From positions 1 through 61,686 of the forward strand of contig SUUI01000010.1 in NCBI GenBank assembly GCA_015062605.1: a DNA stretch of 61,686 nt. Direction: 5' to 3'. The notes beneath the pieces are model-generated. The model was not told where the DNA came from. It saw only the letters and a list, made by a program, of their open reading frames with translations, and made no database searches. Source of the stretch: Eggerthellaceae bacterium (GTDB lineage Bacteria > Actinomycetota > Coriobacteriia > Coriobacteriales > Eggerthellaceae). A program made the translations under genes and the position numbers. Shown here piece after piece: positions 38,479 to 51,561 of the stretch (positions are counted from its first letter, which is position 1; every line of letters starts with the position of its first letter).

Positions 38479-38910
38479 ATGTGGAGCTCATGCCATCCCA
38501 AATCTGATCAAGACTTGAAGGAATGCGCCGAGTTGGGTAAATCGCTCAATCGCCTTTCCCAGCCCACCATCTTATGCATCCTCGCCCAATCCGAAGAGCC
38601 GCTTCACGGGTATATCATCGTCCAGAAGGCAGCCGAATCCCCCATGTTCGGTGGCAAGAAGCCCGATGCTACGGGCATCTACCGCGCACTTAAGCGCATG
38701 GAGGAGCTCGAATTGGTCGAGAGCCAGTGGGATACCCCCGCTGAAGGTTCTGCGAAGCGCCTGTTCACGCTCACCGACAAGGGCCGTCGTTGCCTGCGCC
38801 GCTGGATCGATGCGCTGGCTTGCTACGAGCTCACGCTCGAGCAACTGCGCGCTGATGCGGCAGCTGCCCTCGGCATCGAATTGCCCGACACACCGTATTG
38901 CACCCACTAA
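38479..38910 (+). CDS. PadR-family transcriptional regulator
   Basis: The 143-residue protein has a PadR winged helix: LSQPTILCILAQSEEPLHGYIIVQKA, then GGKKPDATGIYRALKRMEELELVESQWD with the wing and recognition helix. A short C-terminal helix for dimerisation follows. The ATG at 38479 is chosen because similarity begins soon after; its ribosome site (AAAGAAG) is weak. It precedes a small thioredoxin-fold gene by 27 bases and may regulate it or the divergent CYTH gene. The ligand is unknown. Confidence 0.8.
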   Translation: MWSSCHPKSDQDLKECAELGKSLNRLSQPTILCILAQSEEPLHGYIIVQKAAESPMFGGKKPDATGIYRALKRMEELELVESQWDTPAEGSAKRLFTLTDKGRRCLRRWIDALACYELTLEQLRADAAAALGIELPDTPYCTH

Positions 38911-38937: not shown

Positions 38938-39177
38938 ATGCCTGCGCCGATTCTGTATTACTGGGGACCTTGCACCGTGTGCGCAACGACCGTGAAATTC
39001 GCAGAGGAAAACGGCATCGAGCTCGACAAACGCGATGTGGAACAGGTTCCTCCCTACGAGGAGCTTCTGGCTTTAGGTGGCGACGCGAACAAGATCCCGT
39101 ATCTGTATGACGACGAAAAGCTGCTCCAGGGCAATGCCGCCATCATCGAGCATTTGACGGCGAAATTCCTATCGTAG
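38938..39177 (+). CDS. Small glutaredoxin-like protein
   Basis: This 79-residue thioredoxin-fold protein has an active-site-like CxxC in YYWGPCTVCATTV (residues about 11-14), a cis-Pro region NKIPYLY and a final helix. It resembles glutaredoxin and NrdH in size but has an unusual GPCTVC site. The ATG follows AAAGGAG. It ends nine bases inside the 3' end of the convergent GNAT gene. Possible partners are the nearby redox enzymes; this is inference. Confidence 0.78.
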   Translation: MPAPILYYWGPCTVCATTVKFAEENGIELDKRDVEQVPPYEELLALGGDANKIPYLYDDEKLLQGNAAIIEHLTAKFLS

Positions 39178-39603
39178 ATATTCCATCGGTTGCGGCGTGC
39201 ATTCCTCGCGCATCTCGCAACCATCGCAGTCACCCGCGATTTCAGGAGCAATGAGCTCCCAATCGATGTCCTTGTATCCGAGCGCCCGATAAAACGGGAT
39301 GCTGACACCGCGTGACACCAATCGGACGCTTCCGAAGCGCTCATGCACATCATCCATCATCATGCGTCCGATCCCAAAGCCGCGCCATGGCTTATAGAGC
39401 ACGATGGGGTTCACGTACGCTTGGTTAGTCTTGGGATCGACCCATACCCTCACAAAGCCGATGGGTACATCGTCTTCATTCACCGCAACTGTCACACCCT
39501 CGGTCGAGGGGATGGCATCCATGCCCTCCCATGCGGCGTAGGCATTCACGTAATCCATATCCGCATCGCGAGCATCTCGAAGCGCTATGTTCATCTGGGT
39601 CAT
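39169..39603 (-). CDS. GNAT family N-acetyltransferase
   Basis: The 144-residue protein has the acetyl-CoA loop VLYKPWRGFGIGRMMMDDVHERF and the GVSIPFYRALGYKD end typical of GNAT. The C-terminus has a small Cys cluster (GDCDGCEMREEC) that may bind metal. The start ATG (39601-39603) follows GAGGAG; a longer TTG-initiated form is less likely. It lies 27 bases after the flavoprotein gene and may be the last gene of the redox operon. The substrate is unknown. Confidence 0.82.
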   Translation of the reverse strand: MTQMNIALRDARDADMDYVNAYAAWEGMDAIPSTEGVTVAVNEDDVPIGFVRVWVDPKTNQAYVNPIVLYKPWRGFGIGRMMMDDVHERFGSVRLVSRGVSIPFYRALGYKDIDWELIAPEIAGDCDGCEMREECTPQPMEYLR

Positions 39604-39630
39604 CGACGATCTCCTCAAAACGCGCTTGCA

Positions 39631-40170
39631 CTAGGATAGGCTCGCGCCGAACGCGCGCGCCTCATCTAGCCCGGGCTTACCGATTATGGCGCCCTTTTCG
39701 TACACGCCGTTTTGCATGATGATCTTCACGATTTCGGCGTGACAGTAATTCATGACAATCTCGAAGCTTCTAATCAAGCCGTCCGCCGTCGAAGGATCCT
39801 TGTCTTCGAACGCCAAGAGCAAGGCGACCTTGTTGAAATTAATCGGCTTACCGCCGATTGCGCAGAACTGCCGATCCATGAAGGCCTTTATCTGAGCTGG
39901 ATACGTGTAGAAGTACATGGGGAAAGCGTACACGGTAAGCTCCGCCCAACATAAATCGTCATAGAAGTCCTGCATATCATCTTTCTGAATGCATTCCCCA
40001 TCATGCGTTACGCAGTATTCACAAGCCTTGCAACCTGCGATTTTCGCGCGGCCTGCATCGATGCGACGCACCTCATTACCTGCCGATAGGGCACCTTCGA
40101 TGAAGGCATCGGCGAAGATGTCGGAATTACCGCCTTTGCGCGGGCTTCCCGTCACTACGAGGATATTCAT
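39631..40170 (-). CDS. Iron-sulfur flavoprotein / NADPH-dependent FMN reductase family
   Basis: The 179-residue flavodoxin-fold protein starts MNILVVTGSPRKGGNSDIFADAF, the FMN phosphate loop. It carries GCKACEYCVTHDGEC, a compact Cys cluster that binds a 4Fe-4S centre in the Isf family of anaerobes. It probably moves electrons between ferredoxin and an acceptor. It follows the radical SAM gene by 20 bases and could supply the electrons that enzyme needs. The start has GGGAGAAG upstream. Confidence 0.88.
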   Translation of the reverse strand: MNILVVTGSPRKGGNSDIFADAFIEGALSAGNEVRRIDAGRAKIAGCKACEYCVTHDGECIQKDDMQDFYDDLCWAELTVYAFPMYFYTYPAQIKAFMDRQFCAIGGKPINFNKVALLLAFEDKDPSTADGLIRSFEIVMNYCHAEIVKIIMQNGVYEKGAIIGKPGLDEARAFGASLS

Positions 40171-40190
40171 GATCTTCTCCCCTCTCGCGC

Positions 40191-41507
40191 CTAGTCTTGG
40201 CGCAGCTCCTCCTTGCACCACGGAGCGTAAACGCGCCTTCCCGATGCATCGGTCAAATGATACGAGCAGAATGGAATGGCACGACCGTCGGGAACGGTCA
40301 CCATCATGGAGCACTCGCGAAGGCGCTGCACGTCCATGGTGTATGCATCCATGTAGTCCATGATGACGATGGAAAGCCCCGTATTCACTGGAACGCCCTT
40401 TTTGACGAGGATGTCATAGAACACCGAGCCTTGCGGGCTGTCGGGATCATAGGCTTCGCAGTATTCCTCGTAAGTCAGTCGTCGCGTCGCTGGGAAGAAA
40501 CCGCTTTCGTGTGTCGCTTCGGAGCTTTTCACCATGAAGACGCCCGTGTCGCACAAAGGATTCGAACAGCCAAGCGGCCAGATATCCTTCGGTTCGATAA
40601 GGCCTTTGGACTGCTCGGAAAGCTTGAAGATGACATCGCCTGCGGTCATCATGTTCTTGCATTCGGTATCGAAGCGCCCCGAAGAGAACGCTGGCTGAAG
40701 CGCAAGACCCGCAACCACATCTGAATTCTCAAGGCAATAGAACAGCATGTCGCCGAGCTGGTCATCGTTTACGCCATCGAGAATGGTCATGCATAAGACA
40801 ACCTGCACGCCCGCCTCACGGCAACGATCTATAACCGCAAGCTTCGCCTTTAAGATGTCATGCCCGCATGTTGCCTCATATACATCGCCCGTAAGTCCAT
40901 CGAACGACAGGAACAAACCGGTAACTCCCGCGCTTTTGAGCTGTTCGAGATAGCCATCGCGAGCAGCGATGACCAGTCCGTTCGTATTGAGCTCGATACC
41001 CCAGAAACCCTTCTCGCGGCCCATGCGAATGATCTCGGGAAGGTCTTTGCGACATGTGGGCTCGCCACCCGTCAACTGCACTGCGCCATCGGTTCCCACC
41101 GCTTTCGCGATGACATCGTACATGTCGCTGATCTCCTGAAGCGTCGGATCATGCTCCTCGTCATCGGCACTCATGAAGCACACGGGGCAATGCAGATTGC
41201 ACTGCCAGGTCACCTCGATCTCGAGCAGCGTGCCACGGCGCTCGTGACGAGCGCAGGTGCCGCACCCGAAGGGACATGGTTTGGTCATTGGGATGGTGTT
41301 GTGCGGCGCGGTCTTAGGCATCGCACGGCTGGTCAGCCATTTGAAGTGCTCGACATCGGGCCATATGCGTGTGCGGTAAGTTCCGTGCTCGGGGCACGTG
41401 CGCTCCATCCAAACCTCGCCGCCCTCGTCAGCGAAAACCTCCGCTTTGAGCGAGCGCAGGCATTCAGGGCAGAGTGCTATCGTCGAATACAGGTGCTCTT
41501 GGGCCAT
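40191..41507 (-). CDS. Radical SAM enzyme, Tes/MJ0619-like family
   Basis: The 438-residue protein has an N-terminal zinc-ribbon-like part (C13, C16 in LCPECLRS; C38 in TCPEHG) and a second cysteine group CPFGCGTC (78-85). The radical SAM core follows as CNLHCPVC (C103, C107, C110), with a late C-terminal stretch GRAIPFCSYH. This full pattern is that of the MJ0619/Tes family. Known members methylate the pterin of methanopterin (MJ0619) or couple lipid tails to make membrane-spanning tetraether lipids (Tes). Members in this bacterial class have no assigned role that I know of. It lies 24 bases after the DUF2064 gene. Confidence 0.85.
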   Translation of the reverse strand: MAQEHLYSTIALCPECLRSLKAEVFADEGGEVWMERTCPEHGTYRTRIWPDVEHFKWLTSRAMPKTAPHNTIPMTKPCPFGCGTCARHERRGTLLEIEVTWQCNLHCPVCFMSADDEEHDPTLQEISDMYDVIAKAVGTDGAVQLTGGEPTCRKDLPEIIRMGREKGFWGIELNTNGLVIAARDGYLEQLKSAGVTGLFLSFDGLTGDVYEATCGHDILKAKLAVIDRCREAGVQVVLCMTILDGVNDDQLGDMLFYCLENSDVVAGLALQPAFSSGRFDTECKNMMTAGDVIFKLSEQSKGLIEPKDIWPLGCSNPLCDTGVFMVKSSEATHESGFFPATRRLTYEEYCEAYDPDSPQGSVFYDILVKKGVPVNTGLSIVIMDYMDAYTMDVQRLRECSMMVTVPDGRAIPFCSYHLTDASGRRVYAPWCKEELRQD

Positions 41508-41530
41508 GGATCTTATCCCCTTTGCGCTAT

Positions 41531-42538
41531 CTACTCGCCGTCCTCGGAGGCGATGAATTTGCTGCGTTCGTACGCATTCGTCTTGGCCGTTTGCTCACGG
41601 ATGGCGGTCATGCCCTTCGCGATAGCCTGCAGCTCCTCGATAGATGGTTCCTCAACATCGCTTGACGCACCGCCTTCGCCATCGAGATAGTCACGTGGAT
41701 CGTGGTTCTCGTTCGGAGGCGTGGATATCGTAATGCCCATGAAGTCGACCCAATCGAGGGTACGACGTGGCACATACAGATCCTGGAACTTCGCCGCCTG
41801 CTCGATCATCTTCATGCAGCTGATTGCATGTGCGAGGTCGGTGGCCTCATCGACGTCAGCGACCGGATCGAAGAACGCTGTGGGAATACCGGCTTCCTTG
41901 AGCTTCTCCAGATAGCCATCGAGGGCTGGACGCCCATCCATGTTGTAGTAGATGCCCGTATGGTTCATATTCGGCGTATTCACGCTATAGCCCACAAGCG
42001 ATGTACCGCACTCTTGGCACGGTGCCACAACGAAACCGGGTTTTCCGATGTTTTGGAAGTACTCGAGCCATTTGAAGCCATCGATCAGATGCTGCTTGGG
42101 CATGGTGGGAACATCGCCGCCGATGCTCACGATATTCTCATAACCCAGCTCGAAAAGCTGCCGGAAGGCATCGTTGAAATGCTCGTCGAAGGTGTGCCCC
42201 TCGTCGCACAGGTAATGGATCTCCATGGGCCAGGGACCAATGGAATCGAAGATCTCCTTCACCAAGGTCACGCTTTCGGCGGGCGTTGTTGACACGAAGA
42301 AGTCGTACGTGATCTTGTCAGCTGTTGGGTCAGCAGCAACCAATGCATCGTTTTCACGCTGCAATGTGATGCACGCGTGCATCGCGCATTCGCATACGTC
42401 GAAGAAACACCGTTTGTAGAACTCTGCCGCCTGCTTCGGGGTGAGGAAGCCACCATACTCGAGCGTCATGCGCGTCTTCACCAGTCCCACCAGAGGAGGT
42501 TTGCTGAAAATCAGCAGTGCGGCTTTTTTCTCGGCCAT
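41531..42538 (-). CDS. DUF2064 (TIGR04282-type) nucleotidyl/glycosyltransferase-like protein
   Basis: The 335-residue protein starts AALLIFSKPPLVGLVKTRM, the GT-A nucleotide-binding start of DUF2064. It has SIGGDVPTMPKQHLIDGF in place of the usual GSD.P motif and LVGYSVNTPN further on. A tail of about 70 acidic residues is extra. The TIGR04282 family is named after its repeated association with radical SAM enzymes. No membrane segment is seen. It sits between the molybdenum enzyme and the radical SAM gene, with 19- and 23-base gaps, so the four are almost certainly one transcript. The sugar or nucleotide used is unknown. Confidence 0.82.
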   Translation of the reverse strand: MAEKKAALLIFSKPPLVGLVKTRMTLEYGGFLTPKQAAEFYKRCFFDVCECAMHACITLQRENDALVAADPTADKITYDFFVSTTPAESVTLVKEIFDSIGPWPMEIHYLCDEGHTFDEHFNDAFRQLFELGYENIVSIGGDVPTMPKQHLIDGFKWLEYFQNIGKPGFVVAPCQECGTSLVGYSVNTPNMNHTGIYYNMDGRPALDGYLEKLKEAGIPTAFFDPVADVDEATDLAHAISCMKMIEQAAKFQDLYVPRRTLDWVDFMGITISTPPNENHDPRDYLDGEGGASSDVEEPSIEELQAIAKGMTAIREQTAKTNAYERSKFIASEDGE

Positions 42539-42557
42539 ACTATCTTTTCATCCTTTC

Positions 42558-44846
42558 CTATTCGTTGTCGCGTGAAAAGCTCAGCGGCTCTTTCGCTGGG
42601 AAGACCACGCAATCGATAGCGTTATACCACCAGGTGCCGATCATATCCTCCCCCGTCTCGACCGAGCACGAGGTGAGGCAATTAATGTTCGACTCCCACA
42701 TTCCCCCGAAACCAGGAGCGCCTGGCGTCCATTCAGGATGCCACCAGCCGTAATCCGCATTGACGAGCGCATCACGCATCTTGGCAACCTTGAGCACGAA
42801 ATTCGCTTGGCCCTTGTCGGTAGCGAGCGTGACGATGCTCCCTGGCTCGATGCCAAGGTATTTCGCAGTGGCCTCGCTCACTTCGGCAACCGGATACGGG
42901 CTCGTCTTCCTGAAAGCAGGGTTGTTAAAGTACATCGATGCATTATACGGCTGTTTACGGGAACCCGTGATCAACGGCAGATGAACGCCAAGAGCCCGCG
43001 TTTGCTCAGAACAAAGCGTGATCGGAGGTTGCGGCATGGGCAGGCGCTGTCCACCAAGATGCGTCAGCGCTTCGCTTGCAAGCTCGATCTTACCCGTCTT
43101 CGTCGCAAAGCCCACAGGGTTTCCATCGGGGCCGGGTTTGAGGTATTTGAATGGGTCGGGCGGTTGGAAATAGATACCCGTCTCACAATATGATTCCCAG
43201 CTCATTCCCGCTGGCTCAAGCGTTGAGGCGATGGCGTCCTTGAACGTTTCGTCGGGCCATGCATCCGCCTGCCCCAAGCGCAAGCCGAGCTCGCGGAACA
43301 CATCGTAATCGCAACGTCGCTCGTAGTAGGGTTCCACAGCCGCGGGCCCACCATAAACGATATTGGCAACACCGCCATGCTGTTGGAATGTCGGACGTTC
43401 TATGGCACCTGCGGCAGGAAGCACGTAATCGGCCATCGACGCTGTCGGAGTCATCCAGTACTCGAGCACGATGATCAACTCGAGCTTCTGGAACGCCTCG
43501 AACACGCGATGCGTATCCGCGTAGGTCAGCAAGGGATTCGTCGCTTCCACGATAAGCGCGGTTACCGGATACGGTTCGCCCGTTTCGATGGCATGGAGCA
43601 CCAAGTCAGGATGCGCGCTCGTCAGATACCGTGCAGGCAGGGGTTTTCCATGCTGCATGGTGAGCGAATTGATGTATTCAAAGCCCTCGTAGCACTGAAG
43701 CGGCGTATATGGCGTATTAAGGCAGGCAGCACGCTGCTCCGCAGAGAGGGCAGCGGTCATTTCCAGATCGTACTCCGTCGTGAAATCGCTTGATTCCGTC
43801 ATAAGACAGGCACCGGGTTTGTCGATGTTCCCAGTGATGGCGCGCAAGCAGCAGATGGCGCGGTGCGTCGGAGCAACGTTGCGGCCAACCTGATCGATGC
43901 CTCGGCCGCTCACCAAGGCGCCGGCACGCGCATTTCCCCACAGGCGCGCGACGCGGACGACATCCTCTGCATTCAGCCCGCATGCTTGCGCGACAAGCTC
44001 GGGCGAGAATGCCTGAACATGCTCGGACAGCTCCTCGAACCCGTGGCACCAATCCTTGACGAACGCTGCATCGAAGAGTCCCTCGTTGATGATGACGTTG
44101 AGCATGCCGAGCGCTAAGATGCAATCGGTTCCAGGACGAACAGGAAGCCACACATCCGCGATGCCTGCAAGCTGCGTATACCGCGGATCGATGGCGATGA
44201 TGGGTGTGCTGCCATCGCGCATGCTGCGTAAGGCTTGCCACCATGCCGAGTTATCGGACTGCGCCGGATTCGTGCCCCAGATGACAAGGCAGTCCGTCAG
44301 TCCCGGAATCACATCGGCCTCGATCGTCCAACCGAAGGTGATGACATCCATCCAAATGCGCGGGTTCCAGCAAATCTGGCCGATGCCCATATTGTTAGGC
44401 GAACCGAAAAGGTTCAAGAAGCGATGCAAGGGCCAAAACGAGGTGTGCGGCCCGCCTATCATCGAGCAGAGGGTTTGCGCGCCGTATCGCTCGCGCAGCC
44501 CAGAAAGCTTGTTGGCGATGTCATCGAGCGCCTCGTCCCAGCTGATGCGCTCCCATTCGTTCGCACCACGCTCGCCTACGCGGCGAAGCGGATAGTTGAT
44601 GCGGTCGGGATGATCGAGCACATCGAGGTTCATGCGCCAGCGGCGGCAACCTGCAAGCACCTTGGGATCATACGGATACCGCGTCGGATCAGGCTTAAGA
44701 TCGATGACCCGACCATCGCGCACCGTAGCCGAGAAACCACACAGATAGCCGCAGAAGAAGCAGTTCGTGCGCTCGATATGATCGCCGCCGTCGCATGCGC
44801 ATGGAGCATCCGCGGCCATCATGTTCTCTGTCAACGCGTCAGGCAT
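42558..44846 (-). CDS. Molybdopterin oxidoreductase, catalytic subunit (family uncertain)
   Basis: The 762-residue bis-pterin enzyme has an N-terminal 4Fe-4S site (C29, C32, C36, C67 in CFFCGYLC...LAGC). GQICWNPR follows, whose Cys159 is a likely molybdenum or tungsten ligand, then the usual blocks WGTNPAQSDN and TGNIDKPGA and a C-terminal beta-barrel domain with TGSRKQPYNASMYF. There is no Tat signal, so it is cytoplasmic. The ATG overlaps the stop of the CCG-domain gene as TAATG. The substrate is unknown. Without a membrane anchor gene in the operon, the CCG protein is the probable electron partner. Confidence 0.86.
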   Translation of the reverse strand: MPDALTENMMAADAPCACDGGDHIERTNCFFCGYLCGFSATVRDGRVIDLKPDPTRYPYDPKVLAGCRRWRMNLDVLDHPDRINYPLRRVGERGANEWERISWDEALDDIANKLSGLRERYGAQTLCSMIGGPHTSFWPLHRFLNLFGSPNNMGIGQICWNPRIWMDVITFGWTIEADVIPGLTDCLVIWGTNPAQSDNSAWWQALRSMRDGSTPIIAIDPRYTQLAGIADVWLPVRPGTDCILALGMLNVIINEGLFDAAFVKDWCHGFEELSEHVQAFSPELVAQACGLNAEDVVRVARLWGNARAGALVSGRGIDQVGRNVAPTHRAICCLRAITGNIDKPGACLMTESSDFTTEYDLEMTAALSAEQRAACLNTPYTPLQCYEGFEYINSLTMQHGKPLPARYLTSAHPDLVLHAIETGEPYPVTALIVEATNPLLTYADTHRVFEAFQKLELIIVLEYWMTPTASMADYVLPAAGAIERPTFQQHGGVANIVYGGPAAVEPYYERRCDYDVFRELGLRLGQADAWPDETFKDAIASTLEPAGMSWESYCETGIYFQPPDPFKYLKPGPDGNPVGFATKTGKIELASEALTHLGGQRLPMPQPPITLCSEQTRALGVHLPLITGSRKQPYNASMYFNNPAFRKTSPYPVAEVSEATAKYLGIEPGSIVTLATDKGQANFVLKVAKMRDALVNADYGWWHPEWTPGAPGFGGMWESNINCLTSCSVETGEDMIGTWWYNAIDCVVFPAKEPLSFSRDNE

Positions 44847-45808
44847 TAAGCCTTCTCCAATCCTATGAACGTACGATGACTCGGCTGCAGCTCATCCACG
44901 CCGAGCGACTCATCGAAGAGAAAACGGAGTTTCATCCAAGCATCGGCGGCATACCAATCGATGCGATAGTTGTATAAAAGCTCCAAATAATGGAACACCG
45001 GAACCCTGCGCTGTGCCATGGACAATTGGAACGCACAGCTCACACAGGCCGTCATGATGCCCGTCGCCTTTGCGGCAATCGCCTCTTCGCCATGACGCTG
45101 CGCTTGCTTGTCAGCAGCCTCATAGTTTCCCGTTGCGCGCACAAGCGATCCACAGCAGAATGAGGTTGTGCGGTTGTGCTCGCATTCGTTATATGCCTCA
45201 TCGGCGAGCAGGGCGCGCACGCCTGATGCGAACTCGCCCGTCTTCCGATCGGGACATGAATCGTGGATGCAGAACATCGGGCGCATCTCGGAAAGTCCAG
45301 GCTCGAAGTAATCCTTGCCTGCGTCGACGACAGTGGAAAGCAACGTAAGCGCGCCATCCGAATCGATGCGATAGCCCAAATCGGCAAGCACGGTCGGCAA
45401 GGGAATGATCGCTATATCGGCTGTGGAGGCATCACGTGCAACCGCATCGCGTAAAGCCTTCACGCAATTCGGGCAGGCCGTCACGATCTTTTTCACGCCA
45501 AGCAAGGAGAGCCGCTCGCACAGCTGCTTTTCGTAGTTTGCGCGTATCTCGGCACCATTGGACTCGTATCTTAGGATCTTCCCGCAGCACAAAAGCGAGA
45601 TGCCCTCCACAATCCCGGCATCCGTAAGCGTTGCGTACACCGCATCGACAAGAGGCATACCGTAGTTTATAAACGAGCATCCGGGAAAGAAAAGGGTCTC
45701 GCATGGTTGCGGCATGCCGTCGGCCTCGACCATCAAGGTCTGCAAGCCCGGATATTCGCACTGAATCGTCGAACCCGTAAGCGCATCGGAGAATGAATAG
45801 GTGCTCAT
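44846..45808 (-). CDS. CCG-domain (HdrB-like) iron-sulfur protein
   Basis: The 320-residue protein has two CCG motifs. The first is C44, CCG at 74-76 and CPNC (112-115). The second is CCG at 218-220 and CVSC (255-258), with Cys180/185 ahead. In HdrB, two such domains bind non-cubane 4Fe-4S clusters that reduce disulfides or pass electrons; GlpC, LutA and SdhE relatives also carry them. It is the first gene of the redox operon, with GGAGG before the ATG. Because the start of the molybdenum enzyme overlaps its stop, the two proteins probably act together. Confidence 0.87.
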   Translation of the reverse strand: MSTYSFSDALTGSTIQCEYPGLQTLMVEADGMPQPCETLFFPGCSFINYGMPLVDAVYATLTDAGIVEGISLLCCGKILRYESNGAEIRANYEKQLCERLSLLGVKKIVTACPNCVKALRDAVARDASTADIAIIPLPTVLADLGYRIDSDGALTLLSTVVDAGKDYFEPGLSEMRPMFCIHDSCPDRKTGEFASGVRALLADEAYNECEHNRTTSFCCGSLVRATGNYEAADKQAQRHGEEAIAAKATGIMTACVSCAFQLSMAQRRVPVFHYLELLYNYRIDWYAADAWMKLRFLFDESLGVDELQPSHRTFIGLEKA

Positions 45809-45943: not shown

Positions 45944-45974
45944 CAAAAAAGGGAGGCCAGTTTCCCGACCTCCC
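45944..45974 (-). terminator. Terminator of the NrfD operon
   Basis: On the minus strand GGGAGG and CCTCCC pair, with further bulged pairing inside, followed by TTTTTTG. It ends the three-gene oxidoreductase operon just before the separate CCG-led operon, showing that the two are distinct transcription units. Confidence 0.82.
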
Positions 45975-46009: not shown

Positions 46010-46984
46010 TTAGAACTCGTTCTTGCCATACTCCCAACGGGTCATGAATGCCTCGTCGCCCTTCGGAAGCTTGTTGTAATAATGCTCTTCGCCTGGAATC
46101 GCACGACGATCGTCGGAGTATACGAACAGGAAGCGAAGCAGCAAACCAGAAAGAAGGACGATCCACGGAGCGATGAACGTCGCGGCAACAGTACCAGCAC
46201 CCACGATGTACATGATGAGCGGAAGCACCAAACCGCAACCAACCATGAGACCCCAGAAGATCGGAGCTGTCTTGCCCTTGACCCAACGGTCGGCGACCTT
46301 CTTGGCGGTCACGTTGCCTGCGCCAACCAGCGAGAGGACGTACAGCAACAGGATGATGATCTCGGCGATGACCAAGATGATATCGATCATGTGCAGCACT
46401 TCGCTGATGTAGGTGGCAACGACAAGGTTGTTAACCGTGCTCTCGGCAGGCCACCAACCGATGGACAGCGTGACTGCTGCGCATGCGGTGGAGAGTGCCG
46501 AGACCGTGAACAGCACCGGCAGAGCCGGGGTTGCCCAGAATGCATGGGACTTCAAGGTGGAGAACATCAAGCCAGTGTAGAGCATGATGCCCAGACCCGA
46601 AACGCCGGCAAGGATCAGATTGAAGGGACGGAAGAATGCCATGAACTCAGCAAAGCCTCCCAACGGCAGATAAGAAAGGAACCAGAAGAAGCCGAAGATC
46701 AGGCATACCGACAGAAGTCTGGCGCCCCAGCAGATAATCGATGTCGACTTGATGAAGCAACGATAGAAAACGCCTGGCTGACCAAGCTCGAAGACGAGCA
46801 GGAAGCAGCCGAAGCCAAGACACAACAGGCCGATGAATCCAGGCCATGCGAACACCCAACCGACTTCCTGATAGCTAGGAAGCACATTGAAGGAGAAGAT
46901 CATGGCGAGGAAGTAAATGCCACCGCCGAGGCCACCCAAGAACAGGTAGCTCGCAATGGGCCATTCCCAATAATGATGACGCAT
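46010..46984 (-). CDS. NrfD/PsrC-family membrane anchor subunit
   Basis: The 324-residue integral membrane protein has about eight helices and opens with HHYWEWPIASYLFLGGLGGGIYF, the NrfD-family start. It binds menaquinone or menaquinol in known complexes and hands electrons to or from the ferredoxin subunit. The ATG overlaps the stop of the ferredoxin gene (TAATG). It belongs to the complex with the upstream catalytic and four-cluster subunits. Confidence 0.9.
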   Translation of the reverse strand: MRHHYWEWPIASYLFLGGLGGGIYFLAMIFSFNVLPSYQEVGWVFAWPGFIGLLCLGFGCFLLVFELGQPGVFYRCFIKSTSIICWGARLLSVCLIFGFFWFLSYLPLGGFAEFMAFFRPFNLILAGVSGLGIMLYTGLMFSTLKSHAFWATPALPVLFTVSALSTACAAVTLSIGWWPAESTVNNLVVATYISEVLHMIDIILVIAEIIILLLYVLSLVGAGNVTAKKVADRWVKGKTAPIFWGLMVGCGLVLPLIMYIVGAGTVAATFIAPWIVLLSGLLLRFLFVYSDDRRAIPGEEHYYNKLPKGDEAFMTRWEYGKNEF

Positions 46985-47562
46985 TATCTCCTACCTCCTA
47001 AATCAGGGATGTAATAGATTTGCGGACCAGTGCCCAAATCTTCCATCAACCTTACAGTTTCAACGGAGCCGATAAGCTTCGAAACCTCGGAATTCGGATC
47101 ATCCAAATCGCCGAAGATACGAGCCTTCTGATGGCAGGTCTGCACGCAATACGGCACAGCCTCGGGATCCATCTTGCGGCGCTCACGGCAGAACGTGCAC
47201 TTGCGAACGAAGCGGTGCAGGCGAGGCTCGACCTTGGACTGGTCGCGCATGCCGTAGGGGCAGGCGTTGACGCACACCTTGCATGCCATGCACTTGGTGT
47301 AGTCAATCCATACGGTGCCGTCCTCGTCCTGCTGGCTCGCGCCAGTCGGGCAAGCCGGCACGCATGCAGGCTTCTCGCAATGCATGCACAAAGTCGGCAG
47401 CCAGTTGCGATGAACATTCGGCCACGTTCCCTGAACACCATCGCTCACAACCGGGTTGTAAACGATATCCATCGGGAGCTTGTTCCACGTACGGCAAGCA
47501 ACCGTGCAGGAATGGCAGCCGATGCAGCGACGCTGGTCGATAACCATAACGTAACGTGTCAT
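46984..47562 (-). CDS. Four-cluster ferredoxin subunit (DmsB/NrfC-like)
   Basis: The 192-residue protein carries sixteen cluster cysteines in the DmsB order: C13/C16/C19/C23 (CIGCHSCTVAC), C59/C62/C67/C71 (CMHCEKPACVPAC), C91/C94/C97/C101 (CMACKVCVNAC) and C122/C125/C139/C143 (CTFC...YCVQTC). It should relay electrons between the NrfD anchor and the molybdenum subunit. No signal peptide is present, matching a cytoplasmic position. It starts 14 bases after the catalytic gene. Confidence 0.94.
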   Translation of the reverse strand: MTRYVMVIDQRRCIGCHSCTVACRTWNKLPMDIVYNPVVSDGVQGTWPNVHRNWLPTLCMHCEKPACVPACPTGASQQDEDGTVWIDYTKCMACKVCVNACPYGMRDQSKVEPRLHRFVRKCTFCRERRKMDPEAVPYCVQTCHQKARIFGDLDDPNSEVSKLIGSVETVRLMEDLGTGPQIYYIPDLGGRR

Positions 47563-47576
47563 ATCAATCAGCCTCC

Positions 47577-50477
47577 TTACACAATCTCTTGACGCGTGTT
47601 CATGTCGTAGCGCTTGCCGGTTTGCATGTCGACTAACGTGTTGTCGGTCGGATCATAGGCATAGCCCGAGTAAGCATCATAGTAGACACCGGCATTGACG
47701 TCGATTACCCAACCGGAGTTCGGATCATAGACGAGGTCCGTGCCAGGCAAGAAGCCTGCACCCCTCTCCATATCCCACTCGACCAGACCAGGCAGCTCAT
47801 ATGGAGCAGGCTGTCCCGGGAAGCACTGGACGTTGCCGAAATAGACGATCTCCTGACGATTCATGTCGTAGATCTTGCCCGTTGCATCATCAACGAGGCA
47901 CTGGGAATCGGCATCGTAGCGCCATCCGGTATAAGCATCGTAGTACGACTTGTTGCGCGGATTGACCAACCAGCCAGAAGCGTCATAGCGGAAGAACGTG
48001 CCCTTCTGATACAGCTGGTTGTCTTGCCAGCACCAGTCATAGCCCTCGGGAACCTCGAAGTCGGGTTGCGGAACCTCGAACGGAATCGGCTCACGCGCAA
48101 GCGGTTGATCGCTCGGCATGACGGTGACGCCAGGAACGCTGGAGGAACCAGGAATGGACCACTGGCTATCCTTCTTCGTGAACTCCTTATCGAGCTCGCC
48201 GCACTTGTACACCTTGCACATCAGACCACGGTTGGCCCAAGAGCCGCCCATCGGGTCGCAGTGCTCATCGTCGACGGAGGTCAGCGTGTTGACGTTGGAC
48301 TCGAGGCAACCGAACGGGTTGTCGAGATCCGCGGAGCCATCGCGCTCGGGGAACCACCAGCCACGCGGGCAGAAGACCACGCGAGGATCGACGGAAGGCT
48401 GCACTTCGGCGCGCATCTTGATGCGGCCGCGCCTCGTCTCGATCCAGCACCAATCGCCCTGCTTGATGCCGAGCTTCTCGGCAAGCTCGGGGTTGATGTC
48501 GAAATACGGATCGGGATACAGGTAACGCGTATACGGCATGTTGAAGTGCTCGGAATGATGGAACGGCATGAAGCCGCCGCCCGTGGTGAGCACGATCGGA
48601 TACTCTTCCGCGATCTCGGGAGTATCGATCTCGTTCTCGATGCAGCCGATGTAGGTCGGCATGCCAGGATAACCGAGTTGACGCAGAATCGTGGAGTTGA
48701 GCTCCACCTTGCCGGACGGCGTCCAGAAGCCGCCATTGGAGATGAACTTGCTCTGATGCAGCGGCGGATAGTACTGACGAACCTGAGAGACGAACTCATC
48801 CCAGCTGTTGACCGGAAGGCCAAGAGGCTTGATGATCTCAAAGTTAGCCTCTTCCTCGGTCTCCCACGGCCACAGCGCCGGATCCTGGCCGCATGCCAAG
48901 CCGAGCTTGCGCCAGAACACCATGTCGGTGTGGCGGTCGTACTTGGGTTGAATGGCACGGCTGCCGCCCATGAGGGAGTCGGTTGCGCCATAGTGGGTGA
49001 CGATGATCGGACGCTCGAGCGCACCAGCTGCCGGGAAGATGTAGTCGGCGAACAACGCGGTCGGAGTCATCCAGTACTCGACGACGACGAGGAACTCGAC
49101 CTTCTTTAGGGCCTCGAGGGTCATCTTGGCATCGCCATAGGAGTTGATCGGATTGGTCGCATTGACGATCAGGCCGCGAACCTGATACGGATCGCCGGTG
49201 ATGATCGCCTTGAAAACGCTCGGGCCATGTGCCTCGCAGAACCACTCGACAGGCAGGGTCTTGCCCCACTTGCGGCGAGCGTTGTCGCTGATGAGCTGAT
49301 AGCCGGGCCACGACGTGAGTTTGAACTTGTTGGAGCCGATCTGCTTTGCCTTCTGCTCCTCGGGCAGCCACTCGTTGGCTTCCATCTCCTCGTCGGTGAG
49401 GAAGTTGATAGCCGGTCCGGGGATGCCATCGGCACCGGGAACGTCCAGGTTGCCGGTGACGGCGCGCAGAAGCGCGATGGCATGGCTGCCGGTCGTGGAA
49501 GCACGACCGATCTGATCCCACGTGCAACCCCACTGGATGCAACCGGGAGTATTGGTGGCATACATGCGGGCCGCGGTGCGGATTTGATCGGCGGAAAGCC
49601 ACGTGATCTTAGATGCCCATGCAGGAGAGTACTGCTTGATATGGGCCTTGAGATCGGCGAAGCCGTCGCACCAGGTGTTGACGAACTCCTTGTTGTAGAG
49701 ACGCTCGCGAATGATGACGTTGAGCATTGCCAGCGCCAGCGCAGCGTCGGTGCCGGGACGAAGCGGCAGCCACAGATCGGCCTTCGCAGCGGTCTCGGAA
49801 TAACGCGGGTCGACATAGATGATCTTCATGCCGCCCATTTGCAGGTCGGTGTAACCATGCATGCCGGGAAGCGTGGAAGCGCCCGGGTTCATGCCCCACA
49901 AGATGAGGCAACGCGCGGTGCCCAAGTCGGTTTCGAACGGAGACCAACCGCACACGCAGGTTTCGGCCATGAACGTCGGAATCCAGCACAGCAGTGCATT
50001 ATGGAAACCATTCGGCGTGCCGAAGATGTTCAGGAAGCGACGACGCGCCCAGTCATCGGTACGGGTCGTGCCACCCGCGGAAGCAATCGCCTCAGCGCCG
50101 CTTTCCGCCTTGATTTGGTTCAGACGCTCGGCAACTTCCTTGATAGCCTGATCGTAATCGATCTGCTCCCATTTGCCTTCGCCCTTTTCCCCGACGCGCT
50201 TCAACGCATGGTTGATACGGCCGGGATGGTTGACATGCAAAAGCGCGCTGGTACCACGGCAGCACAGGCCGCCCTGGTTGGTGTAATTCGGGTCGCCCTC
50301 GATCTTGATTACGTCACCATCTTTGACGTAAGCAAGGACGCCGCAGTTCGCATGGCAGAAGTAGCACAGCGACTTCACCATCGTTACACCGGGAGCATGA
50401 ATGTCAACCTCTGTGTCCATACTGGGTTTTTCAAAAAGATCTTGAAAGAAACCCTTATGGCCTTCAGCCTCGGTCAT
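47577..50477 (-). CDS. Molybdopterin oxidoreductase catalytic subunit with C-terminal aromatic repeats
   Basis: The 966-residue protein has a 4Fe-4S site (C38, C41, C45, C72 in CYFCHANC...GLCC). A probable metal ligand Cys164 lies in NALLCWIP, followed by the usual WGMNPGAS, VTGNLDVPGA and EYWMTPTALFADYIFPAAGALERP blocks and a C-terminal barrel domain to about residue 790. The last part (about 823-966) holds two tandem repeats rich in Tyr, Asp and Gly that are not part of the enzyme family. No Tat signal is visible. It forms a DmsABC-like complex with the next two genes, facing the cytoplasm. Substrate unknown; reductases of sulfoxides, N-oxides and aromatic compounds share this plan. Confidence 0.9.
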   Translation of the reverse strand: MTEAEGHKGFFQDLFEKPSMDTEVDIHAPGVTMVKSLCYFCHANCGVLAYVKDGDVIKIEGDPNYTNQGGLCCRGTSALLHVNHPGRINHALKRVGEKGEGKWEQIDYDQAIKEVAERLNQIKAESGAEAIASAGGTTRTDDWARRRFLNIFGTPNGFHNALLCWIPTFMAETCVCGWSPFETDLGTARCLILWGMNPGASTLPGMHGYTDLQMGGMKIIYVDPRYSETAAKADLWLPLRPGTDAALALAMLNVIIRERLYNKEFVNTWCDGFADLKAHIKQYSPAWASKITWLSADQIRTAARMYATNTPGCIQWGCTWDQIGRASTTGSHAIALLRAVTGNLDVPGADGIPGPAINFLTDEEMEANEWLPEEQKAKQIGSNKFKLTSWPGYQLISDNARRKWGKTLPVEWFCEAHGPSVFKAIITGDPYQVRGLIVNATNPINSYGDAKMTLEALKKVEFLVVVEYWMTPTALFADYIFPAAGALERPIIVTHYGATDSLMGGSRAIQPKYDRHTDMVFWRKLGLACGQDPALWPWETEEEANFEIIKPLGLPVNSWDEFVSQVRQYYPPLHQSKFISNGGFWTPSGKVELNSTILRQLGYPGMPTYIGCIENEIDTPEIAEEYPIVLTTGGGFMPFHHSEHFNMPYTRYLYPDPYFDINPELAEKLGIKQGDWCWIETRRGRIKMRAEVQPSVDPRVVFCPRGWWFPERDGSADLDNPFGCLESNVNTLTSVDDEHCDPMGGSWANRGLMCKVYKCGELDKEFTKKDSQWSIPGSSSVPGVTVMPSDQPLAREPIPFEVPQPDFEVPEGYDWCWQDNQLYQKGTFFRYDASGWLVNPRNKSYYDAYTGWRYDADSQCLVDDATGKIYDMNRQEIVYFGNVQCFPGQPAPYELPGLVEWDMERGAGFLPGTDLVYDPNSGWVIDVNAGVYYDAYSGYAYDPTDNTLVDMQTGKRYDMNTRQEIV
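47580..48011 (-). repeat. Two tandem OCRE-like aromatic repeats at the end of the oxidoreductase
   Basis: Residues about 823-881 and 909-966 align with each other. Both have G-T near the start, YD then GW, YYDAY(T/S)G followed by an aromatic pair with YD, LVD, TGK, YDMN and finally RQEIV. A 27-residue linker separates them. The pattern of octamers built on YD and G with aromatics resembles the OCRE domain of eukaryotic RNA-binding proteins. The likeness is by eye, so shared ancestry is not claimed. Confidence 0.75.
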
Positions 50478-50769: not shown

Positions 50770-51561
50770 TTAAATCTGGAAGCTCATTCCGTCGCGTGCC
50801 TGCTCGACTCGGCCCCCGTACTGCTCGAGATATGCATCAAGCTCGACGGTGGTGATGGGCTCATCGTAATGAAGCGCAAGATGCGTCAGATAGATCTTCT
50901 TCGCATCGAGGGCAAGCCCCTCTTCGATGGTCTCCTGGATGCTGTGATGTGCATCGGGACGCCAGCAGCGCTTCCAAAACGTCGCATCCATCGCAAGGAT
51001 GTCGCAACCCTGTATGCGCTCCTTCGTCTCCTCAGGCAAAAGCCCCGTATCGGACGCATAGAACATGCGCGTCGTGTCGGTCTCTATCAGGTATCCGAAC
51101 GATCCGGGAGAATGGCGCACAGGCAGAGCCGTGTACCGAACGCCATCGAAGGAAACCGTGTCATACTCCTCGATCGCGTGAGCATCGAGGCAGTACATCA
51201 TATATTCGAACTCCTGTGCAAGCTGTTGAAGGGTTATCGCACTTGCATAGGTCGGAAGCTTGCATTTGGTACGCAGCTGCACCATGTACTCAAGCTCCAA
51301 AAGCCCCCCGACGTGATCGGAATGGCAATGCGTGTACAAAAGCTGGTCGAAGCTTTTGATGCCCTCGCGATTCAGCTGATGGCGGATATCGGGCGGCGTA
51401 TCGATGAGCAGGGTCTTCTCGCCGCGGATCATCACACCGCAATCGCCACGGGCAACACTGGGGTTTCGGCGTGCTTCCTCACATGCGACGCAATCGCAGA
51501 AAAATGCTGGGATGCCGCATCCCGATCCTGTCCCCATGAATGTGAACGTATGCTGCGACAT
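50770..51561 (-). CDS. MBL-fold metal hydrolase, PhnP-like
   Basis: The 263-residue protein starts TFTFMGTGSGCGIPAFFC and has the metal motif THCHSDH, then an aspartate site YASDTG and a late His in THLALHYDEP. The N-terminal CDCVAC resembles the structural zinc site of PhnP (cyclic phosphodiesterase). A role as phosphodiesterase is probable, but the substrate is unknown. No phosphonate genes are nearby. It follows the NlpC/P60 gene by 39 bases. Confidence 0.84.
   Translation of the reverse strand: MSQHTFTFMGTGSGCGIPAFFCDCVACEEARRNPSVARGDCGVMIRGEKTLLIDTPPDIRHQLNREGIKSFDQLLYTHCHSDHVGGLLELEYMVQLRTKCKLPTYASAITLQQLAQEFEYMMYCLDAHAIEEYDTVSFDGVRYTALPVRHSPGSFGYLIETDTTRMFYASDTGLLPEETKERIQGCDILAMDATFWKRCWRPDAHHSIQETIEEGLALDAKKIYLTHLALHYDEPITTVELDAYLEQYGGRVEQARDGMSFQI

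Follow-up and report, generated by a model that had tools for sequence, protein, structure and literature searches.

A conserved gene set joining a Tes-like radical SAM enzyme to acetylene hydratase-like Mo/W enzymes in Coriobacteriia and in bacteria of other phyla

Which function unites the closely packed genes at positions 39169-45808 of contig SUUI01000010.1 from an Eggerthellaceae bacterium? The stretch analysed here comprises 61,686 nucleotides, is referred to as the window, and belongs to a 1.7 Mb assembly with 98% completeness. An earlier note on this DNA had proposed an undescribed operon of five or six minus-strand genes, with gaps of at most about 27 bases or one-base overlaps. Six such open reading frames (ORFs), their start codons assigned mechanically, were found, and sequence analysis and domain searches recovered all of the domains that had been named. 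The genes for the CCG protein and the Mo/W protein share a single base, and the remaining gaps are 19, 23, 20, and 27 bp. The six genes are:

44846-45808, minus strand: HdrB-like CCG protein with two complete CCG motifs (PF02754, E 1.6e-12, and motifs)
42558-44846, minus strand: acetylene hydratase (AH)-like Mo/W bis-molybdopterin guanine dinucleotide (bis-MGD) protein, here termed Mo (2e7z, E 6.9e-96)
41531-42538, minus strand: DUF2064 protein with a predicted CofC/FbiD-like nucleotidyltransferase fold (PF09837, 39 bits; AlphaFold2 model; structure comparison)
40191-41507, minus strand: radical S-adenosylmethionine enzyme (rSAM) of the Tes/TrsS superfamily, third clade (NCBIfam scores, AlphaFold2 model, tree)
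39631-40170, minus strand: Isf-like flavoprotein (FMN_red), genus-specific (PF03358)
39169-39603, minus strand: GNAT with an invariant CxxCx5CxP tail (PF00583 and an alignment of 17)

Since the same order recurs across phyla, the arrangement is beyond chance, and the operon is indeed a conserved and undescribed one. We regard it as a serious possibility, if short of probable, that the cluster forms an anaerobic, self-contained pathway producing a single dedicated small molecule (either a cofactor or a redox-active metabolite), which two AH-like Mo/W enzymes use or transform.

Close relatives of rSAM were detected in slightly less than half of 138 family genomes (64 counted, fragments included), mostly at about 65-81% identity and at 48-50% in four. 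In most of 40 neighbourhoods the order was MoA2-FeS-NrfD-CCG-Mo-DUF2064-rSAM-(about 1 kb)-GNAT, often with a convergent PadR gene; the stretch of about 1 kb codes for a ferredoxin-DUF169 protein in most loci. The upstream members of this series, together with a gene for a PhnP-like protein, are also present in the window:

50770-51561, minus strand: PhnP-like phosphodiesterase of the metallo-beta-lactamase fold, 263 aa (PhnP 3g1p is the closest solved structure, E 5.8e-29)
47577-50477, minus strand: MoA2, AH-like bis-MGD Mo/W catalytic subunit with C-terminal OCRE-like repeats (2e7z, E 7.2e-112; Pfam; synteny)
46984-47562, minus strand: ferredoxin-type Fe-S subunit of MoA2 (NCBIfam ArrB/NrfC/DsrO-like; synteny)
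46010-46984, minus strand: NrfD-like membrane subunit of MoA2 (TIGR03148, 65 bits; synteny)

MoA2-FeS-NrfD (46010-50477) and the PhnP-like gene are members of the conserved set, which in Eggerthellaceae and other Coriobacteriia consists of PhnP-like, MoA2 with its Fe-S and NrfD subunits, CCG, Mo, DUF2064, rSAM, ferredoxin-DUF169, and the Cys-tailed GNAT. The five genes that the earlier note had grouped as a unit are real, but its grouping missed these upstream members and included the flavoprotein, which is absent from the other clusters read except that of the congener G091 (97% identity); the five-gene unit was therefore rejected. The Isf-type assignment of the flavoprotein itself was borne out by the compact motif CX2CX2CX6C (CKACEYCVTHDGEC), which satisfies the Isf pattern CX2CX2CX4-7C. 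In the window and in G091, this protein stands where relatives have ferredoxin-DUF169, and the window genome retains a 78%-identical ferredoxin-DUF169 elsewhere (L181, 13391-14362), its neighbours there being, by eye, an adenylation-domain-like and a cyclase-like gene. The flavoprotein is either a genus-specific local substitute for ferredoxin-DUF169 or a mere neighbour.

Two further features bear on the edges of the operon:

45944-45974, minus strand: intrinsic terminator between the NrfD and CCG genes (sequence GGGAGGTCGGGAAACTGGCCTCCC-TTTTTT)
38494-38910, plus strand: PadR regulator, convergent (PF03551), kept beside the cluster in many Eggerthellaceae

Downstream, the convergent gene that had been described is glutaredoxin-like and ends at 39177. 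Upstream, the terminator is present as described; however, locus comparison showed that strong terminators are rare at the NrfD/CCG junction in relatives. We thus rejected it as a conserved operon edge and concluded that it does not mark the natural edge of the gene set.

A profile scan of genome contigs with the rSAM alignment yielded at least 457 relatives, and neighbourhoods were taken from the best 80; many of the loci compared are contigs of metagenome-assembled genomes (MAGs), some of them incomplete. The same gene set occurs in other Coriobacteriia, and homologues recur as a single block or as two blocks in Bacillota, Desulfuromonadia, Myxococcota, and Acidobacteriota, with a fragment in Chloroflexota. 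The rSAM gene adjoins Mo in Peptococcaceae, Selenomonadales, Gracilibacteraceae, Desulfuromonadaceae, Geobacter, one MAG each of Myxococcota and Acidobacteriota, and a short Dehalococcoidia contig. Among the intact loci, almost all have Mo adjoining rSAM or separated from it by one gene. Bacillota and Desulfuromonadaceae have the order MoA2-FeS-NrfD-rSAM-Mo and a second block of DUF2064, DUF169, CCG, GNAT, and PhnP-like genes, not all of which are present in each genome; this block lies on the rSAM contig in four genomes among those read. A DUF2064 homologue is present in 10 of 11 carriers outside Coriobacteriia and DUF169 in all 11. Where distant from rSAM, the two are mostly mutual neighbours, accompanied by GNAT, PhnP-like, and CCG genes. 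PhnP-like homologues lie near cluster genes in Coriobacteriia, Bacillota, Desulfuromonadia, and Myxococcota, and single-ORF fusions join GNAT to a PhnP-like domain in one lineage and to CCG in two others (few assemblies). Conservation of the gene order, a point the earlier note had left to be checked, thus reaches far past this strain.

The genes also go together within the family. Of rSAM, Mo, and DUF2064, present in 64, 61, and 67 of the 138 genomes, Mo accompanies rSAM in 61 of 64 carriers and DUF2064 in 63 of 64. No genome has Mo without rSAM. Four have DUF2064 without rSAM, with matches only as strong as those of a second DUF2064 paralogue, which occurs in 51 of the 64 cluster carriers. 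One copy of this paralogue (G000:C6:2804-3658, locus L213) adjoins a gene resembling a major facilitator superfamily transporter.

In the radical SAM protein, the radical SAM domain is accompanied by an HMPTM-type zinc ribbon. The curated models that match the protein best are TrsS (NF045646; 358 bits, cut-off 490) and Tes (NF045702; 306 bits, cut-off 450). Relatives in other phyla also remain below both cut-offs, and five relatives, located in other phyla or at a paralogous locus, reach TrsS scores of 378-398 bits, again below the cut-off. In a midpoint-rooted tree of 51 rows, the cluster proteins form their own clade (support 100/99) and TrsS another (100/100); Tes stands apart, represented by a single, partly joined sequence whose exact position is weak. 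A true TrsS (610-649 bits) is encoded elsewhere in the genome of six of the 11 non-Coriobacterial carriers. Membership in TrsS was rejected by score, by tree, and by this coexistence; membership in Tes was rejected by score, by the separate clade, and by the replacement of Tyr459 of Tes, which aligns with Val403. The protein is thus Tes-like, as had been suggested, without belonging to Tes: it stands as a third clade alongside Tes and TrsS, and the tree does not place it in a family with a known unrelated reaction.

The AlphaFold2 model of rSAM (predicted local distance difference test, pLDDT, 91) aligned with 7TOM over 411 of 438 residues (VIA Z 45.7, root-mean-square deviation 2.3 Å). The ligands of the rubredoxin (C13, C16, C38, H41), N-auxiliary (C78, C82, C85, H88), and radical SAM (RS; C103, C107, C110) clusters of Tes as well as its labile Met (M383) are all retained, and these residues are invariant in 62 sequences (site reference PMC9433317). 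The protein is about 60 residues shorter than Tes, chiefly in the C-terminal part. C319, C399, and C414, all invariant, are our guess for the ligands of the C-cluster. Two observations on paralogues were made in passing. A Coriobacterial locus (L059, L060, L150) encodes a 40% identical rSAM, a CCG protein, and a 39% identical AH-like Mo enzyme, the rSAM being followed by a 472-aa protein that by eye looks like a B12-binding radical SAM enzyme. A third Tes-like paralogue (L201), encoded in the acidobacterial genome G787, is placed with Tes by the tree.

For the DUF2064 protein, the AlphaFold2 model (pLDDT 91) was closest to 3cgx (VIA Z 24.9) and, among characterised proteins, to the CofC/FbiD guanylyltransferases (Z 18-20); other nucleotidyltransferases scored below 15 and glycosyltransferases near 13. 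Conserved motifs are KPxxGxxKTR and an Asp. The predicted fold, in line with the nucleotidyl- or sugar-transfer fold assumed at the outset, favours nucleotidyl transfer without proving it. TIGR04282, the arsenosugar glycosyltransferase model, gave 54 bits for the window protein and 85 bits in L145 (cut-off 134). With a DUF2064 score this far short of the cut-off, and neither an ArsM- nor an ArsS-type gene identified in the window's cluster, an arsenosugar pathway was rejected. The PhnP-like protein reaches 126 bits with TIGR03307, below the cut-off of 272. The CCG protein has the motifs CX29CCX36CXXC and CX32CCX35CXXC. Among the papers searched, none connected DUF2064 to radical SAM proteins, or DUF169 to both radical SAM and molybdopterin.

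The assumed pairing of the CCG protein with a molybdenum enzyme held, and the set contains a second such enzyme. Both Mo and MoA2 have acetylene hydratase 2E7Z as their closest solved relative. In place of the catalytic Asp13 of AH, located beside the FeS ligand, Mo has a Gly that is invariant in 29 sequences, within an equally invariant GIGxxCW, and MoA2 has a His. The Cys141 metal ligand is kept: in Mo it is C159, likewise invariant in the 29 sequences, and in MoA2 the Cys of LLCWIP. The guanosine/pterin contact motifs DPR and RPGTD of both proteins align with AH. As neither has an RR motif within its first 40 residues, both are probably cytoplasmic. A pair of OCRE-like aromatic repeats (PF17780, E 2.7e-10) closes MoA2, a bacterial molybdoenzyme; OCRE is familiar from eukaryotic splicing proteins.

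How might these proteins act together? In a small-molecule pathway, DUF2064 would join a nucleotide to a phospho-acceptor in the manner of CofC/FbiD, and rSAM would abstract hydrogen from a saturated carbon and couple it via a C-terminal [4Fe-4S] cluster, forming a C-C or C-S bond. GNAT would acylate and the PhnP-like enzyme would cut a phosphodiester, while ferredoxin-DUF169 and the CCG protein might serve as low-potential electron carriers or in thiol/disulfide chemistry. The soluble Mo/W enzyme would act on the product by hydration, dehydroxylation, or a redox step, and MoA2-FeS-NrfD would connect the pathway chemistry to the quinone pool. Several lines of evidence argue for such a pathway: the gene order kept in Coriobacteriia with the same genes in other phyla, the almost perfect co-occurrence of rSAM, Mo, and DUF2064 in the family, the fusions of GNAT to CCG and to PhnP-like domains, the CofC/FbiD-like fold and motifs of DUF2064, the metal ligands and labile Met kept in rSAM, and a slot-by-slot parallel with the TrsS system. 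Other points weigh against it. The set is known by its composition, conservation, folds, ligands and motifs, and co-occurrence, the steps above being inferred, and the family genomes share kinship, so that the co-occurrence counts are not independent. DUF2064 could be a sugar transferase instead, and the GNAT and PhnP-like folds are broad. The biosynthetic-type block of Bacillota stands apart from the rSAM/Mo block, and the linkage might be loose. Recurring molybdenum cofactor (Moco) genes fit an alternative, cofactor maturation, equally well.

In that alternative, which we consider doubtful, rSAM, DUF2064, the PhnP-like protein, and GNAT modify the molybdopterin cofactor of both AH-like enzymes, or else insert the metal or adjust it, so that a variant Mo/W cofactor results. 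In several non-Coriobacterial lineages, moeA, moaA, moaC, mog, or mobB adjoin one of the two blocks (L136/L152, L143, L147/L206, L203, L208, L210), three times at the DUF2064 block itself (L206, L203, L210), and L145 has FmdE and a MoeA-like protein. Moreover, CofC and MobA are of one fold class, and PhnP cleaves cyclic phosphates, one of which is contained in the Moco precursor cyclic pyranopterin monophosphate. However, Moco genes commonly neighbour molybdoenzymes for reasons of supply, so that these neighbours are compatible with either cofactor supply or a modified cofactor. None were seen beside the window's cluster, and the contact motifs shared with AH are those of a user of ordinary bis-MGD.

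It is unlikely that the cluster is a catabolic or respiratory module in which the AH-like enzymes act on an environmental compound by hydration or dehydroxylation, MoA2-FeS-NrfD acts as a quinone-linked reductase, and the other proteins supply activation. Among characterised proteins, AH is the nearest relative that the catechol dehydroxylases of gut Eggerthella and Gordonibacter have (PMC7028382), the layout of MoA2-FeS-NrfD is that of a catalytic subunit, a 4Fe-4S subunit, and a membrane anchor, and the family has many Mo enzyme paralogues. Yet patchy substrate modules are usually variable in composition, whereas here rSAM, the CofC-like, and the PhnP-like proteins travel together across phyla without being obviously needed for catabolism, and no transporter recurs across phyla in the loci read.

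Coupling of hydrocarbon tails by rSAM as in Tes, with the other genes building or trimming a head group, is highly improbable: the earlier proposal of an unknown lipid found nothing positive beyond the Tes fold with its metal-site ligands and labile Met, while the separate clade, the lost Tyr459, the shorter C-terminal part, and the lack of any recognised lipid-synthesis gene in the loci read speak against it.

Returning to the small-molecule pathway, a more specific version can be put forward only tentatively: the product may be a new nucleotide-activated, radical-coupled redox cofactor of several phyla of anaerobes, including gut Coriobacteriia, the AH-like Mo/W enzymes being redox partners dedicated to it. 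F420, pyrroloquinoline quinone, and mycofactocin each have their own pathway. The gene set is common to anaerobic gut bacteria and to soil and sediment bacteria of several phyla, and links two hitherto unassigned AH-like Mo/W enzymes and four likewise unassigned families, namely DUF2064, DUF169, a Cys-tailed GNAT, and a PhnP-like metallo-beta-lactamase, to one process. The reaction of bacterial Tes homologues is an acknowledged open question (PMC9433317). One Tes-like clade with fixed partners across phyla points to nucleotidylated, phosphodiester, and acylated compounds as candidate substrate classes, and culturable gut carriers (Adlercreutzia, Gordonibacter) make the question testable.

Among known systems, the closest parallel is that of TrsS, a name reportedly introduced by Haft and Tolstoy in 2025; the comparison rests on NCBIfam models and the loci read. 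The TrsS system (NF045646) comprises DVU_1551-1556-type genes and a molybdopterin aldehyde oxidoreductase. Like our cluster, the TrsS neighbourhood in L198 combines a Tes-like rSAM, a nucleotidyltransferase, a phosphatase, an acyl-activating or -transfer enzyme, a CCG protein, and a molybdoenzyme. In contrast, the cluster rSAM belongs to a separate clade, both kinds being present in six genomes, its molybdoenzyme is an AH-like member of the dimethyl sulfoxide reductase family whereas that of TrsS is of the xanthine dehydrogenase family, and DUF2064, DUF169, PhnP-like, and GNAT proteins take the place of the DVU_155x genes, whose types were found around TrsS in L198 and not identified in the window's cluster. 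As L198 fills the same slots with mostly different protein families, the comparison suggests repeated recruitment of Tes-like radical SAM enzymes into pathways linked to molybdoenzymes. With Tes/GDGT-MAS (MJ0619, 7TOL/7TOM), rSAM shares the fold, metal-site ligands, and labile Met, but it differs by Tyr459, the C-terminal region, a score below the curated cut-off, and the company of Mo/W enzymes. Both Mo proteins share the metal-ligand Cys with acetylene hydratase, the characterised enzyme nearest to the catechol dehydroxylases; they differ from AH by Gly or His at Asp13 and by the constant company of rSAM and DUF2064. CofC/FbiD of F420 synthesis is, by modelling, the closest characterised fold to DUF2064, which shows 17-18% identity, has an extra C-terminal part, and lies in a cluster in which no other F420 genes were recognised. 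Finally, the CCG protein has two complete motifs like HdrB and DsrK-type proteins, but instead of HdrA and HdrC it is accompanied by Mo enzymes.

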